Under the pieces are notes generated by a model that saw nothing but the letters and a program-made list of their open reading frames with translations, was not told the DNA's origin and ran no database searches. Below, in pieces: positions 13,001 through 20,753 of a DNA stretch of 36,785 bases. The position numbers and the translations under genes are program-made. The first letter of the stretch is position 1, and every line of letters begins with the position of its first letter. Source of the stretch: an uncultured Verrucomicrobiota bacterium (GTDB lineage Bacteria; Verrucomicrobiota; Verrucomicrobiia; Verrucomicrobiales; Verrucomicrobiaceae); NCBI GenBank assembly GCA_903960845.1, contig CAJCCF010000230.1:1-36785 (forward strand). Reading direction: 5' to 3'.

Positions 13001-15879
13001 GGCGATGGTTCTCCATCGCGCTCGTTTGGCCTGCGGCTGCTTTTGCGGATCAGGGGGGCGAATTCTTTGATTCGAAAGTCCGTCCGCTGCTGGTCGAGCA
13101 TTGCTACGAGTGCCACAGCGCGGAGAAGACGAAGGGTGACCTGGCATTGGACACGAAGGCTGGTTGGGAAAAGGGCGGAAAATCAGGGAAAACCATCGTG
13201 CCGGGCAAGCCGGACGAATCCCTGCTTATCAAAGCCGTGCGGTATCACGACGAAGACCTCGCCATGCCGCCGCAGAAGAAGGGCGGCAAATTGCCGGACA
13301 GCGCCATCGCGACGCTGACTGAGTGGGTGAAGATGGGTGCGCCTGATCCGCGTGTGGCCGTGGTCAAGATCGGTGGCATGAAGGCTGATGAGGCGAAGAC
13401 ATGGTGGGCTTTTCAGCCGCTCCCAAAGGCGGACAACTCACGGACCATCGATGAATTCATCCACGCGAAACTGGCTGAGGCAAAACTTCAACCCGCTGCG
13501 CCTGCGGACCCTCGCACGCTGATCCGCCGTGCGGCCTACGATCTGACCGGCCTGCCGCCAACGCCGGAAGCGGTGGATGCGTTTGTCGCGGCTCCGTCGC
13601 CGGATGCATTGGCAAGGTTCATCACCCGACTTCTCGACTCGCCGCAGTATGGCGTGCAATGGGGCAGGCATTGGCTCGATGTGGTGCGCTACGCGGACAC
13701 GGCGGGAGAAAACACAGACCGGCCCCTGCCTCATGCATGGCGCTACCGGAACTGGGTGATGGATGCCTTCAATCGCGACACGCCATATGATGAGTTTGTT
13801 AGACTGCAGCTCGCAGGTGATATCCTGAATGCCGGCAAACCGGAGCGCGAACATGGCGAAGGCATCATCGCCACGGGTTACCTCGCCATCGCCCGGCGTT
13901 TCGGGCACGACATCGACAAGGACATGCATCTCACTTTCGAGGATGTGATCGACACCGTGGGCAAGAACTTCCTCGGCCTAACCACCGGTTGCGCACGCTG
14001 TCATGATCATAAGTATGATGCCATCACCTCGAGAGACTACTACGCGCTTTACGGCATCTTTGAGAGCACGCGCTTTGCTTTCCCAGGCTGTGAACCCAAG
14101 GGGCAGCCGCGCGACATGGTGCCGCTGATTCCGGCCGCGCAAGTCGAGGTGCTCATGAAGCCGTGGCGTGAGCGCAACGCGCAAGTCGAAGCCGAGAAAA
14201 AGCGCCGCGCTGAGCTGGCGGGTGCTGCGCAGAAAGTCATCAGCGGCAGCGCTGCCGGGAGCACTCATCTCCTGGCGAGTGCTCAGGTTGGTGAAGGTCT
14301 GTCAGTGAACTTTGATGTGAAAAAGATCGCCGTGCGCAAAGGTGAAGTCATTCAACTCACCGTGTCGCCGAATGCGAACCATGGAGCCGACAGCACGCTC
14401 ATCGAATGGAGCATCCATGAGACAGGCGGTGCGCAGAGCACCTGGAGCGTGGCGGATCTCGTGCAGAGCCTCACGCGGCAGAATCCATCTCCGGGTCGCG
14501 ACGGAGCACTGTGGTGCTTCATTGAGAGCACCTCGACAGGTCCCGCTTTCCTCACTGACAAGGCCGATTCCATCGACGGCAACAGCGCTTTAAAGAAGTG
14601 GAGCATTGGCGATCTGCCATCCGTTTTTGTCAACTCCGCAGACCAGCAGGTGATGGTGTGGACCACGCTCCAGGCTGAGTCGTTCTTCATGCATCCGGGG
14701 CCGAGCCGTCCAGTCGCAGTCGCGTGGGTGAGTCCGCTCGATGGTGAGGTCGCGCTGACAGGCCGCGTCGCGGACGTGCATCCTGCCAAGCTTGATGGCG
14801 TGGCGTTTGAGATTCATCACATCGCAGCGCCTGACTACGGACCTGCGCTCGTCAGCGCGGGCAGGATCTTGAATGAAACAGCCATCAAGGCTGAACCTGC
14901 ACCGGTGATTCCCGTCGCGTATGCCGTCGTTGACGGCGCGGCAAAGAACTCACGCTTTCAGCTTCGCGGCGATCCTGAGAAGCCAGGCGAAGAAATGCCG
15001 CGCCGCTGGCTTTCCGTTTTCGGCGGTGACGCTGTGCCTGCAAATGCCGGCAGCGGACGCAAGCAACTCGGCGACTGGATCGTGAGTTCACCGCTCGCCG
15101 CTCGCGTGATGGTGAACCGCATCTGGGAATGGCATTTCGGCAGCGGGTTGGTGCGCTCGCCAAACGATTTTGGTGCGCGCGGTGAAAAACCAACGCATCC
15201 CGGGTTGCTCGACTGGCTTGCCGCAAAGTTTGTTGCCGGCGGTTGCAGCGTGAAGGCGATGCATCAGCTCATCATGAGCAGCGCCGCGTATCAGCGCGCC
15301 AGCGCCACCTCACACGCCTCTGATCCTGACAATCGTCTGCTGGCGCACTTCACCCGCCGCCGCCTCACGGCGGAGGAAATGCGCGACAGTCTGCTCACAG
15401 CCTCCGCGCAGCTCGATCCGACGCCAGCTGAGGCGCATCCCTTCCCTGCCGAGAGCACCTGGAAATTCTCCCAGCACGGCCCCTTCAACGCCGTGTATGA
15501 AACCAACAAACGCAGTGCCTACCTCATGGTGCAGCGTCAGCGGCGGCACCCCTTTCTCTCGCTCTTCGACGGTGCCGACCCCAATGCCACCACTGCCGCC
15601 CGCCAGACCACCACCGTGCCGACACAAGCACTCTATTTCATCAATGATCCCTTTTTCCATGCGCAGGCTTCAGCGCTGTCGAAAGTGCTCATCGCGCTGC
15701 CTGACGATGATGCCCGCATCACCAAAGCCTGGCGCATCCTCTTCCAAAGAAAACCAACCTCCGCCGAAATGCAGCGCACGAAATCCTTCCTCGCCTCCTA
15801 CCCCGCTGACGACGCCGAAAAATGGGCTGCGCAGGCGCGCGTGCTTATGGCGAGCAGTGAGTTTCTGCATGTAGATTGA
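12997..15879 (+). CDS. Secreted PSD1-type cytochrome protein (PSCyt1/DUF1549/embedded module/DUF1553)
   Basis: ATGA overlap with the regulator. '[17 protein letters not shown]', '[24 protein letters not shown]', '[42 protein letters not shown]', '[11 protein letters not shown]'. Confidence 0.92.
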
Positions 15880-15905
15880 ATCATGAAACCAATTTTACGA
15901 AAAAG

Positions 15906-18368
15906 ATGAAGCCCGCCCTCAACCCCCGCTCCTCCCTGCCGCTCGCAGCCCTGTTTTTCACCGCCAGCCTTGGATTGACTGATGCCGTCCGTGCTGCGGA
16001 ACCGTTTGAAGCTTTCCTGGAGACGCATTGCATCCGCTGTCACGGGCCGGAAAAGGAGAAGGGAGATCTGCGGATCGACCAGCTCTCGCGTGATTTCAAA
16101 TTGGGCGTGGACAGCCATCACTGGGCGGAGTCCATCGAGAAGGTTAACAGCGGCGAGATGCCTCCGAAGAAGGAGAAGAAACCGACGCAGGCGGAGATGG
16201 CGGTGTTTGTCACGAGTCTTGATGCGCGGCTGAAGGAGGGGCGGGCGGCGCGGATGGCGGCGCGGCCGGTGGTGACGCATTATCGTCTGAGCCGGAAGGA
16301 GTATCAGAACACCGTCTATGATCTGCTCGGCGTGCGCTATGATCCTGCCAAGCCGGGCGAGTTGAATGAGGACACGCGGTGGCATGGCTTTGAGCGCATC
16401 GGCTCGGAGCTTTCGCTCTCGCCCTCGCATGTGGACCGCTACTACCGAGCAGCGGAGACGGTGCTGGATCGTGCCTTTCCTGCCACGACGAGCAGCGAGG
16501 CACGGAAGGTCCGCAAAACCGCGGCGGATCTGCGCTACGGCGGCGGGAAGGACCAGCAGGCGGCGCTGGATCGTTTCGGCATCAAGCGGCCGCTGCGTTA
16601 TCTCCTGTTTCCAGGCAGCACCCAGAATGCGCTCTCGCCCAACTGGTTCGGAAAGACGGGGCCGGAGCACAGCGGGCTCTACAAAGTCCGCATTCAGGCC
16701 AGCGGCATTCGTCCGATCGGCGGCCAGCCTGCGCACCTGAGCATCGGCAAGCGGACGGGTGAGGAGACGGTGGATGGGGCCATTGAGTTTGACCTCACCG
16801 CGCCGGAGGATAAGCCGCAGGTGTATGAGTTCGAGGTGTTCCTCGAAATGCCGGCGTCGCTCGACTTCTGCGTGGTGGCCACGGATGTGGTGGACCGCAG
16901 AGCCGGTGCGGCTTTCCGCAATGCGCTCGGCAGCCGGGGCGGTTACATTTTCACCCATAGCAGCGAGACATTGCTCCTGAATCCGAACGCGCCGCAGATG
17001 TTTGATGACAAGGGGAACGGGCTCTTTTCCACAGTCATCCTCGATTGGATCGAATGGGAGGGGCCGCTGGTGTCGGACTCGGAAAAATCGAGGCGCAAGG
17101 ATGTGATGCCGCCGGATGATGCGACGGCCGAGGTGGTGGCGGAGCATTTGCACCGCTTCGCCGAGCGTGCGTGGCGTCGTCCCGTGAAGCAGGAGGAACT
17201 CGCGGAGTATCTGCAATCTTACCGCACGGAGCGCGAGGCAGGCGAGAAGATGGCCGATGCCTACCGTGTGGCGTTGCAGGGTGTGCTGACCTCGCGGCAT
17301 TTCATTTACATCGTTGAGGGCGATCCGGTGGCGCGCGAGCGTCTCACCGATTCGGAACTCGCCACGCGGCTTTCGTTTTTCCTGTGGAGTTCGATGCCGG
17401 ACGAGGCGCTCTTCACCGCAGCCAAAGGCGGACAGCTCAGCGGTGATGGCCTCAAGAAAGAAGTGGACCGCATGCTCACGGACAGCAAAGCCAGCCGCTT
17501 CATCGATGACTTCGCGCGGCAGTGGCTGCAACTGCATCGCGTGGGTATGTTCCCGCCGGACAAGAAGCTCTATCCCATCTACGACGCGTGGCTGGAGACC
17601 AGCATGAAGGCCGAACCCGTGGAGTTTTTCCGCGAGATGTTCGGCAAAAACATGCCCATCGAAGGGTTCATTGATTCCGGCTGGACCACGGCCAATGCGC
17701 GGCTCTGTGACTTCTACGGATTGCCGGAGCCGAAGTCGGGCGGCTTCCAGCGCGTCTCGCTCAAGCCCGAGGATCGTCGCGGCGGTCTGCTCACGATGGG
17801 GGCGGTGCTCGGCTTGACCTCGGACGGCACGCGGCATCGCCCGGTTCACCGGGGGGTCTGGCTCAGCGAGGTCGTCCTTGGCAAATCACCACCGCCGCCA
17901 CCGGCCAACGTGCCCGCCATCGAGCCTCCGACGCCGCAAAGTCCCAAAGCCACGCTGCGTCAAAAGATCGAAGCCCATCGCAACGACGCCAACTGCGCTG
18001 CCTGCCACGCGAAGATCGATCCGCTCGGCCTCGCCTGGGACAACTACGACGCCATCGGCCAGTGGCGCACGCGCGAAAAAATCGCCGCAGGCGTCGGCGA
18101 AGACCCCTTGATCAATCCCTCCGGCATGATGCCCGACGGCCGCCCCTTCCAAGACGCCAACGAGTTCAAGCAACGCCTTCTCGAAGACCGCGACAAGCTC
18201 GCCCGCGCCTTCATCGAACACCTCTGCACCTACGGCCTCCGCCGCGCCCTCGCCTTTGACGATCAGGATGACCTCAAGGCCATCGCGACCGAAGCCAGGA
18301 AAAACCAATACCGCATCAAGGACATCGTCCGCGCCGTGGCGATGTCGGAGTTGGTTAGGAAGCGATGA
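15906..18368 (+). CDS. Secreted PSD-type cytochrome protein (PSCyt1, DUF1587/1592/1588/1585)
   Basis: '[20 protein letters not shown]', '[19 protein letters not shown]', '[33 protein letters not shown]', '[25 protein letters not shown]'. ORF opens at 15876; ATG 15906 precedes the signal peptide. Confidence 0.9.
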
Positions 18369-18375
18369 CGAGTCA

Positions 18376-18465
18376 GGTCTCCAGCAGATTCAGGGAGGCC
18401 AGCAGATTATTCTTTCAAAATGAAATCAAAACCCAAACCCCAATCGGCGGGCCTCCCTGAATCTG
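18376..18465. repeat. Hairpin-forming repeat copy 1 (16-bp IR CAGATTCAGGGAGGCC / GGCCTCCCTGAATCTG)
   Basis: Arms at 18386-18401 and 18450-18465. The 43-bp left part (18376-18418) matches 19248-19290 with one mismatch. Confidence 0.9.
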
Positions 18466-19244
18466 AGGGAGATACCACCACCCATGCTTTCATCGGGCAT
18501 GCGATGAAGGTCCATTCATTGGTTGGGCCAGGACTAGACGAAGAGATATATCATCAGGAGCTTGTCGCGGCTCTGACTGCGGCTGGTATTTCACATTTTT
18601 CAAAGCCGAGGCGGGACTTGGTTTATCGCGGGATTGTTGCGGACACCTTTGAGCCGGATTTTGTCATCGAAAATCACTTCATTCCCGAGTTGAAGTGTCT
18701 GCGCGGATCATTCGCCCCGGAGCATTTGGTTCAGGTGTTCTGCTACTGTAAGTTCTGGCGGCTTCGCACGAGTCTGCTGGTGGATTTCGGCAAGCAAAGC
18801 CTGATTTGGAAGCGGCTTCTGTATCGTTCTCACTCAGCGAGTTTCACTGAGACCAGTCCTCCTGGATTCCTTTCCAATCCCGCGCTGGCTGCAAACATCA
18901 TTCGAGCTGTTGGCGAGTGTCTGAACGAATTCGGTCTCGGCTACCGGCAGAGCACTTGGAAGGGCTTGGTCAGGGCTGCGATCCAATCCGCAGGTCACAA
19001 TGTCCATGCTAACCCAACCGCCACCGTGCTCGATCGTCCACATGTCACGATGTCCAGTCTTGTCATCGACGACAACTGCGCCGTGTTTGTCACTGCCCTC
19101 ACAGACGGCATCAACGCAACGGATCGCGCCACACTTCAAACCCATCTCCGCTGGCTCAACCTCGACTGGGGCATCGTGTTCCACTTCGGCAAAACCACCG
19201 CTGACTTCACCTTTGTCCAACACCCGAAAAAGAAAGCCAGATGA
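18420..19244 (+). CDS. GxxExxY family protein (PDDEXK_3-like), two-lobed
   Basis: 'LVGPGLDEEIYHQELVAALTAAGI' carries the GxxExxY signature (GLDEEIY). 'DTFEPDFVIENHFIPELKCL' resembles a D...ExK nuclease motif. 'HLVQVFCYCKFWRLRTSLLVDFGKQSLIWKRLLY' matches the family C-terminal region. Confidence 0.88.
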   Translation: MKSKPKPQSAGLPESEGDTTTHAFIGHAMKVHSLVGPGLDEEIYHQELVAALTAAGISHFSKPRRDLVYRGIVADTFEPDFVIENHFIPELKCLRGSFAPEHLVQVFCYCKFWRLRTSLLVDFGKQSLIWKRLLYRSHSASFTETSPPGFLSNPALAANIIRAVGECLNEFGLGYRQSTWKGLVRAAIQSAGHNVHANPTATVLDRPHVTMSSLVIDDNCAVFVTALTDGINATDRATLQTHLRWLNLDWGIVFHFGKTTADFTFVQHPKKKAR

Positions 19245-19247
19245 ATG

Positions 19248-19349
19248 AGGTCTCGAGCAGATTCAGGGAGGCCAGCAGATTATTCTTTCAGAATGAAACA
19301 TTGACCAAAAACTCAATCTGCGGGCCTCCCTGAATCTGCTGGAAATCAC
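19248..19349. repeat. Hairpin-forming repeat copy 2 (18-bp IR AGCAGATTCAGGGAGGCC / GGCCTCCCTGAATCTGCT)
   Basis: Arms at 19256-19273 and 19323-19340, immediately downstream of the GxxExxY stop codon. Confidence 0.9.
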
Positions 19350-19379: not shown

Positions 19380-20753
19380 ATGAACATCCAAACCCAATCC
19401 TGGCTCCTCAACCGTCGCCATGCGCTCAAAGCGCTCGGCAGCTTCATTTCGCTGCCGATGCTTGAGTGCATGGTGCCGCTGCGTGCTGCAGAAACAGTCA
19501 CCGCCGCGCCAAAGCGCAGTGCCTTCATCTATCTCGCCAATGGCGTGCATTCGCTGAACTATCAGATCACCACGTCGGGGAAAGATTATAAGTTCTCACG
19601 GTCGCTGAAGCCGTTGGAGAAGCACCGTGAGGTCATCACGCCGATCAGCGGATTGCATCATCCGGGAGCGCTCAGTCACCATCACAACTGCATCTCCGTC
19701 TGGCTCACCGGCGGGAAGCTCGGGCCTTCGGATCGCAACATGATCTCCGCGGATCAGAAGATGGCGGAGATCACCGCGCCGCACACGCGTTACCCGTCGA
19801 TGGAGGTCGCGCTCACGCAGGGTTCGCTGGCGTGGACGGCGGACGGTGTGCAGTTGCCCACGCTGCGTCGTTGCAGCGAGATCTTCGCCTCGCTCTTTGA
19901 AGAACCGAAGGGTGGAAAGATGGCCCAGCGCCGCGCTTTGCGCCGCAAGGGCAGCGTGCTCGATGCCAACCTCGCGGAGGTGCGCCGGCTTGAGAAAAAG
20001 ATGGGCGCGGAGGATAAGGGGCGCATGGAACAATACCTCACCTCGGTGCGTGTGGCTGAGATCCGCACGCGACGCGCCGATTCGTGGCTCGACACACCGC
20101 TGCCGGCCATTTCCGAGGCGGATCGCAAGCGCACCAACCGAGACATCGCCGCCACCATGGCGGGTGATTACTTCCGCACCGTCTATGACCTCATGGTGCT
20201 CGCCTTCCAGACGGACATGACACGTGTGGCCACCTTCAGCCTCGGCGGTGAGGGAGACGCTTTTTCCATTCCGGAGATCGGCATCACCGAGTCTCGCCAT
20301 CAGCTCAGCCATCACGGCGGTGATGCCGGTTACATGGAAAAGCTCACCAACTACGACACCTTCGCCATCGAGCAGTTCAGCTACTTCCTCACCCGCCTCA
20401 CCGAAACGAAGGACCTCAATGGCAAGCCGCTCCTTGGCTCGACGATGGCGCTCTTCGGCAGCGGCATGTCCTACGGTCACAGCCACGGCAACGCCAATCT
20501 CCCGCTGGTGCTCGCCGGCGGATCGGACCTCGGCCTCAAGCACGGCAGTCATCTCGACTTCAACAAGGACGCCAAAGGTTTTGAAGGCTATTCGCTCGGT
20601 GCCGACGGTGCGCTCACCACCGCGCATTATCAGGTTTGCAGCCGCCCGGTGAACTCGGATGCCCACATGAGCAATCTGCTGCTGCTCATGACCCAGCGCA
20701 TGGGTGTGGAGACGGACCAGTTTGGCGACAGCAACAAGGTCATCGCGCTGTGA
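19380..20753 (+). CDS. DUF1552 family protein with Tat-like signal
   Basis: '[23 protein letters not shown]', '[20 protein letters not shown]', '[26 protein letters not shown]', '[18 protein letters not shown]'. Confidence 0.92.

Follow-up and report, generated by a model that had tools for sequence, protein, structure and literature searches.

A GxxExxY gene between two hairpin repeats suggests a mobile element without a known transposase

The window analyzed here (36,785 nucleotides, from an uncultured bacterium of the Verrucomicrobiaceae) is an entire contig, C230, of the 5.94 Mb draft genome G000. Between two co-directional genes it carries a small cassette, in which a GxxExxY gene is enclosed by two hairpins (Table 1). 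A first-pass annotation, made from the letters of the sequence, had placed this element exactly between a DUF1592-type and a DUF1552 gene, and the Pfam matches of both neighbors bear this out.

Table 1. Annotated features of the cassette and its neighboring genes (window coordinates).
Feature	Position	Strand	Remarks
Upstream gene, planctomycete-type cytochrome/DUF1587-1592-1588-1585 protein	15876..18368	+	Pfam PF07631, PF07627, PF07626 and others; orthologues in 36 genomes
Hairpin copy 1	18378..18472	.	Arms 18378-18408 / 18442-18472; holds start and first codons of the GxxExxY gene
GxxExxY / PDDEXK_3 gene, protein P0001, 274 aa	18420..19244	+	D80, E90, K92 and GxxExxY motif kept
Hairpin copy 2	19251..19343	.	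Arms ~19251-19281 / 19315-19343; ATG in loop, stop two codons on
Downstream gene, DUF1552 (HXXSHH) protein	19380..20753	+	PF07586, E 6e-81; orthologues in the genus

Both hairpins are contained in a direct repeat of 107 nt (18367-18473 and 19240-19346, 84% identity). The arms measure 31 nt in copy 1 (87% complementary) and 29 nt in copy 2 (93% complementary), and a 16-bp core, CAGATTCAGGGAGGCC...GGCCTCCCTGAATCTG, is common to both copies; the word family of the site is AGCAGATTC. Folded as single-stranded DNA the two copies reach z = -6.8 and z = -8.7, respectively, and none of 200 shuffled sequences was equally stable. The earlier description of an ORF between two hairpin repeats is thus confirmed. 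In the left parts of the repeats it had counted a single mismatch, which is too few: by eye there are two differences in about 45 positions. As it described, the GxxExxY gene starts at an ATG within the copy 1 loop, the right arm of copy 1 encodes GLPES, and copy 2, which begins directly after the stop codon, retains the series ATG AAA CAT TGA. Copy 2 has the look of an ORF-less derivative. A search of the region against Rfam returned no family at threshold, and the sub-threshold matches were to microRNAs only, as is usual for any hairpin.

The protein, P0001, is a clear member of the GxxExxY family, scoring 95.1 bits against TIGR04256 (cut-off 35, E 3.6e-27) and 91.5 bits against PF13366 (PDDEXK_3; cut-off 22, E ~6e-26). 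PDDEXK_3 is the sole domain found by profile search. Residues E41, Y44, D80, E90 and K92 are invariant across 11 long-form homologues. The core was predicted with a pLDDT of 96.8, and its top match among solved structures is Cas4 SSO0001 (probability 1.00), followed by lambda-type exonucleases; the model points to a PDDEXK nuclease fold nearest to Cas4 and lambda exonuclease, and to a predicted nuclease activity. In the long form the domain is present twice, the second copy being degenerate and making up the C-terminal half (93.5% in a profile comparison, E 2e-7); the full-length model, of moderate confidence (pLDDT 76.8), shows two helix-strand blocks that resemble each other. With a dN/dS of ~0.10 the junction gene is under purifying selection, with the catalytic D/E/K kept. 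GxxExxY proteins occur in 46 of the 48 genus genomes and in many phyla, while no P0001 relatives were found in viral contigs. In the literature searched, which mostly excludes subscription papers and preprints and may therefore miss an existing description, we found neither a function for GxxExxY proteins nor a link of these proteins, or of these hairpin words, to repeats or mobility.

The repeat is not confined to this site, in keeping with the mobility first proposed for it. Genome G000 contains further members in an intergenic region (C487), in frame within a DUF1549/DUF1553 protein (C183), and in frame within isoleucyl-tRNA synthetase (IleRS; C66), here between the catalytic and anticodon domains. 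Across the genus the hairpin family was matched in 28 of 48 genomes, again at intergenic and at in-frame intragenic sites. CAGATTC hairpins within long reading frames are mostly read in one frame, yielding QSVGLPESAG-like peptides, and the N-terminus of the GxxExxY protein reads much the same. One IleRS linker carries in-frame hairpins of different words in different species (CAGATTC, CACAGATT, ATCCTGT, AGCAAGCGTCTCGCTTGC and GGAACAGGTTTCCAACCTGTT) and is short and plain in others; such differing words in one and the same linker are direct comparative evidence that hairpins have been inserted at a tolerated site. Since this concerns an essential tRNA synthetase, the hairpins remodel proteins as well. 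In the accessible text of PMC10969869, Rickettsia palindromic elements (RPE) are likewise short in-frame hairpins in essential or metabolic genes that encode a conserved peptide. The likeness is one of insertion pattern, the hairpins here being read mostly in one frame and encoding QSVGLPESAG; organisms and probably sequences differ, and an enzyme gene is proposed here, whereas none is described there for RPE.

Genomes that possess a P0001-type gene contain more CAGATTC hairpins (p = 0.0008; p = 0.018 without the gene's own flanks). For the wider set of P0001 relatives, with own flanks removed, the link is not significant (p = 0.10), and several genomes harbor many CAGATTC hairpins without a P0001-type gene (e.g. 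G008, with 21 matches).

The orthologous DUF1592-DUF1552 junction was compared at 36 loci/genomes of the genus. Six of these (G000, G045, G011, G005, G001 and G002) contain the GxxExxY cassette with CAGATTC hairpins. Five contain a four-helix-bundle gene instead (23S-IVS family, TIGR02436 / PF05635), with hairpins of the GGAGT or GAACCAAG type, four a lone hairpin of another word, and one (G008, L139) a 675-nt insert without a match to the GxxExxY or the four-helix-bundle profile; the remaining 20 junctions are near-empty (~24-53 nt). Empty sites and sites with one repeat, named by the first-pass annotation as the informative comparison, thus both exist, and no distant relative was seen to keep a GxxExxY gene at this junction without flanking repeats. 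In a tree built from the flanking proteins, the junction states require at least 13 changes, the GxxExxY state alone 4. Among the six genomes the synonymous divergence of the GxxExxY gene is about the same as that of its neighbors, and a recent transposition into the junction was rejected for this reason. The junction cassette is old, selected and vertically inherited, and has been lost or replaced elsewhere; it is no recent arrival. What stands of the unit originally proposed to move with its hairpin ends is therefore the repeat-bounded structure and the spread of hairpins without the gene, but not a recent hop at this junction. No clean target-site duplication was found, and the intergenic DNA is too diverged to define exact ones.

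Three minor observations concern this and similar junctions. In many of the "empty" junctions (L136, L137, L146, L154 and others) CTCCA words are repeated on one side only, ahead of the DUF1552 start; they may represent a single arm of an old GGAGT-type element. In G011 (L142:4962-5804) and G005 (L163:4947-5825) the GxxExxY frame extends into the downstream hairpin, which creates ADSGRPTDY- or AYLPESAG-like tails. Finally, the P0001 relatives L370-L373 (in G046, G034, G014 and G030) apparently lie, judged by eye, at paralogous DUF1592-DUF1552-like junctions, which suggests either that such sites are preferred or that the relatives were duplicated along with the gene pair.

The same architecture surrounds other GxxExxY genes. 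In G000, eight of nine are flanked by repeats on both sides, each with its own word (CGGAAT, GCAGAG, ACAGGAT twice, GGCAGNGGAAT twice, ACAGAAAG and CAGATT). At the ninth (C15), whose upstream side is cut by the contig end, no repeats were seen, and loci L048 and L073 show no clear repeats either. Most relatives of P0001 with 44-54% identity, located at other gene junctions, have related NGATTCAG hairpins. The examined stretch of L371 gave a low score, and L374 (29% identity), whose reading frame was not recovered, is not counted in this comparison. These data bear on the second scenario of the first-pass annotation, a tandem duplication with loss of the second gene copy, taken here as a local duplication of the gene and its leader hairpin without any mobility. 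The ATG at the equivalent place in copy 2 speaks for such an event. The scenario is already contradicted, however, by the genome-wide recurrence of the same repeats at unrelated sites, and neither the other cassettes at the orthologous junction nor the like architecture around unrelated GxxExxY genes fits it. We regard it as highly improbable; a plain duplication is also not needed, because most GxxExxY genes share the architecture and lone hairpins are common.

Flank words follow the protein. For 35 GxxExxY loci of the genus, flank-word similarity correlates with protein similarity at r = 0.683 (computed after dropping pairs with homologous flanks), a value reached by none of 5000 permutations, and r falls to ~0 when the windows are moved out by 400, 700 or 1000 nt. 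The known RAYT-REP pairing, as a positive control, gave r = 0.649, and four-helix-bundle genes gave r = 0.239 in the same test, which is weaker yet significant. The correlation alone could fit recognition of the word or co-transport of a gene with its ends.

A second data set covers 73 loci of another GxxExxY subfamily from 13 phyla, collected with a profile from a four-sequence alignment. Tandem CRCNRAG words are present on both flanks at 45 of the 73 loci, compared with 1 of 252 displaced window pairs; these 45 loci cover ten phyla, one of them archaeal, and both-sided clusters are missing in the other 28. Where each flank carries the words on a single strand, the sense word lies upstream and the complement downstream in 31 cases versus 2 (hand count), and loci with this inverted polarity place the ORF in the loop of a single long-range stem. 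The 7-nt words persist beyond the expected saturation of synonymous sites, which suggests selection on the word itself. Inverted tandem-word flanks are likewise more frequent at the four-helix-bundle loci of the phylum than in displaced windows (p = 6e-9).

In the light of these results "non-autonomous cargo", the label first given to the cassette, is not the best reading, since each GxxExxY subfamily goes with a hairpin word of its own, as RAYTs go with their REPs. In its strictest form the cargo hypothesis states that MITE- or REP-like hairpins are moved by an enzyme encoded elsewhere (e.g. a RAYT) and that GxxExxY is a passenger. Lone hairpins in genomes without a P0001-type gene would fit this, as would the presence of RAYT-type genes in 47 of 48 genomes. 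But the sampled RAYT genes carry other, GC-rich REPs instead of these words, and a RAYT as mobilizer was rejected on that ground; Y1_Tnp is represented in G000 by two weak matches only (one of them listed, in a 387-aa frame); and the match of word and GxxExxY subfamily persists even across phyla. We consider a passive passenger quite unlikely.

The cassettes share a strong orientation bias. In clear cases between co-directional genes they lie in sense in 15 cases versus 1 for the GxxExxY loci of the genus, in 33 versus 1 for the cross-phylum set and in 11 versus 0 for four-helix-bundle loci, compared with 2 versus 4 for RAYT genes. This bias may reflect selection for transcription and not the mechanism. 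It also speaks for an RNA-level scenario, in which the element is an insulator or self-processing cassette: the hairpins would be processing sites for RNase III or for GxxExxY itself that free the cassette from a polycistronic mRNA, as an IVS is freed from 23S rRNA, while the protein would target RNA or control its own mRNA and the spread would be passive. An ORF looped out by a long-range stem, with purine-rich words upstream and their complement downstream, agrees with this, and so does the 23S-IVS protein family with its own hairpins at the same junction. The nearest folds of P0001, by contrast, are DNA nucleases, and the lone hairpins in IleRS and other genes are not explained by RNA processing alone. 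We judge this scenario unlikely, though possible.

That the cassette can behave as a unit is indicated by two GxxExxY loci, G000 C288 and G039 C50, which share 82% DNA identity strictly from hairpin to hairpin while their flanks are unlike. In G040 the esterase gene that lies upstream of one locus directly adjoins the SGNH gene that lies downstream of the other, with no cassette between them.

A hairpin-bounded gene together with lone hairpins suggests a mobile element without a known transposase. Our preferred reading, to which we assign a probability of roughly 0.6, is that the site is an ORF-in-hairpin element in which the GxxExxY protein is paired with the hairpins bearing its word, as their cognate partner and probably also their mobilizer. 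It would belong to a widespread class of small units in which a GxxExxY gene lies between arms of degenerate tandem ~8-10 nt words, each word family being specific to a protein subfamily. The protein would recognize and cut its cognate hairpin, and cutting, via DNA or RNA, would move or maintain the hairpin family; lone hairpins would be ORF-less derivatives that have reached intergenic positions and also coding sequences, where they lie in frame. Observed are the recurrence, the turnover at orthologous sites, the protein-word match, the sense orientation in operons and the purifying selection; cutting and movement we infer.

The putative element appears to work like two known systems and to belong to neither. 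In REP/RAYT systems a gene lies between two palindromes that coevolve with it, repeat number follows the gene, and lone palindromes are scattered (PMC2817692). Here, too, gene and flanking repeats coevolve, to the degree seen in the control, and gene presence tracks the abundance of the cognate repeat, with exceptions. In contrast to RAYT-REP, a PDDEXK protein and no HUH Y1 transposase sits between the hairpins, the arms consist of tandem 8-10-nt words while the sampled RAYT genes come with GC-rich REPs, and orientation in operons is strictly sense. The intervening sequences (IVS) of 23S rRNA with an S23/four-helix-bundle ORF share with our element the small ORF inside a stem and the sporadic distribution (PMC4990558), and in five other species their protein family, PF05635, is found at this junction between tandem-word arms of its own. 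They differ in that the ORF here is GxxExxY (PDDEXK_3) and not four-helix-bundle S23, and that the element sits between protein-coding genes of an operon and not in a 23S rRNA helix. More broadly, GxxExxY nucleases and, in parallel, 23S-IVS four-helix-bundle proteins might serve as the dedicated enzymes of mobile elements that form an undescribed class in bacteria and archaea, with subfamily-specific tandem-word ends, sense insertion in operons and rRNA genes, and ORF-less hairpins in frame in protein genes, the classical IVS being one special case. We put this generalization forward tentatively, as possible rather than probable. The origin and function of 23S IVS have been called unclear (PMC4990558), and a junction used by GxxExxY genes and by the family of IVS proteins alike gives a concrete starting point for tracing their origin and movement; for GxxExxY proteins the cognate repeat provides a testable substrate.

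Two further loci of the data set deserve mention. At L035:3314-4192 and L050:1909- the right arm of a CGGAATAC-type hairpin is read as the signal-peptide end of the next gene (LSV.SVYSVGQ), so that the repeat has seemingly been recruited as coding sequence. At L040 (~300-1500; G000:C238) a GxxExxY cassette separates the true start of a DUF1501-type gene from a partial copy of it, a direct repeat of ~70 nt that is perhaps a trace of the insertion route.
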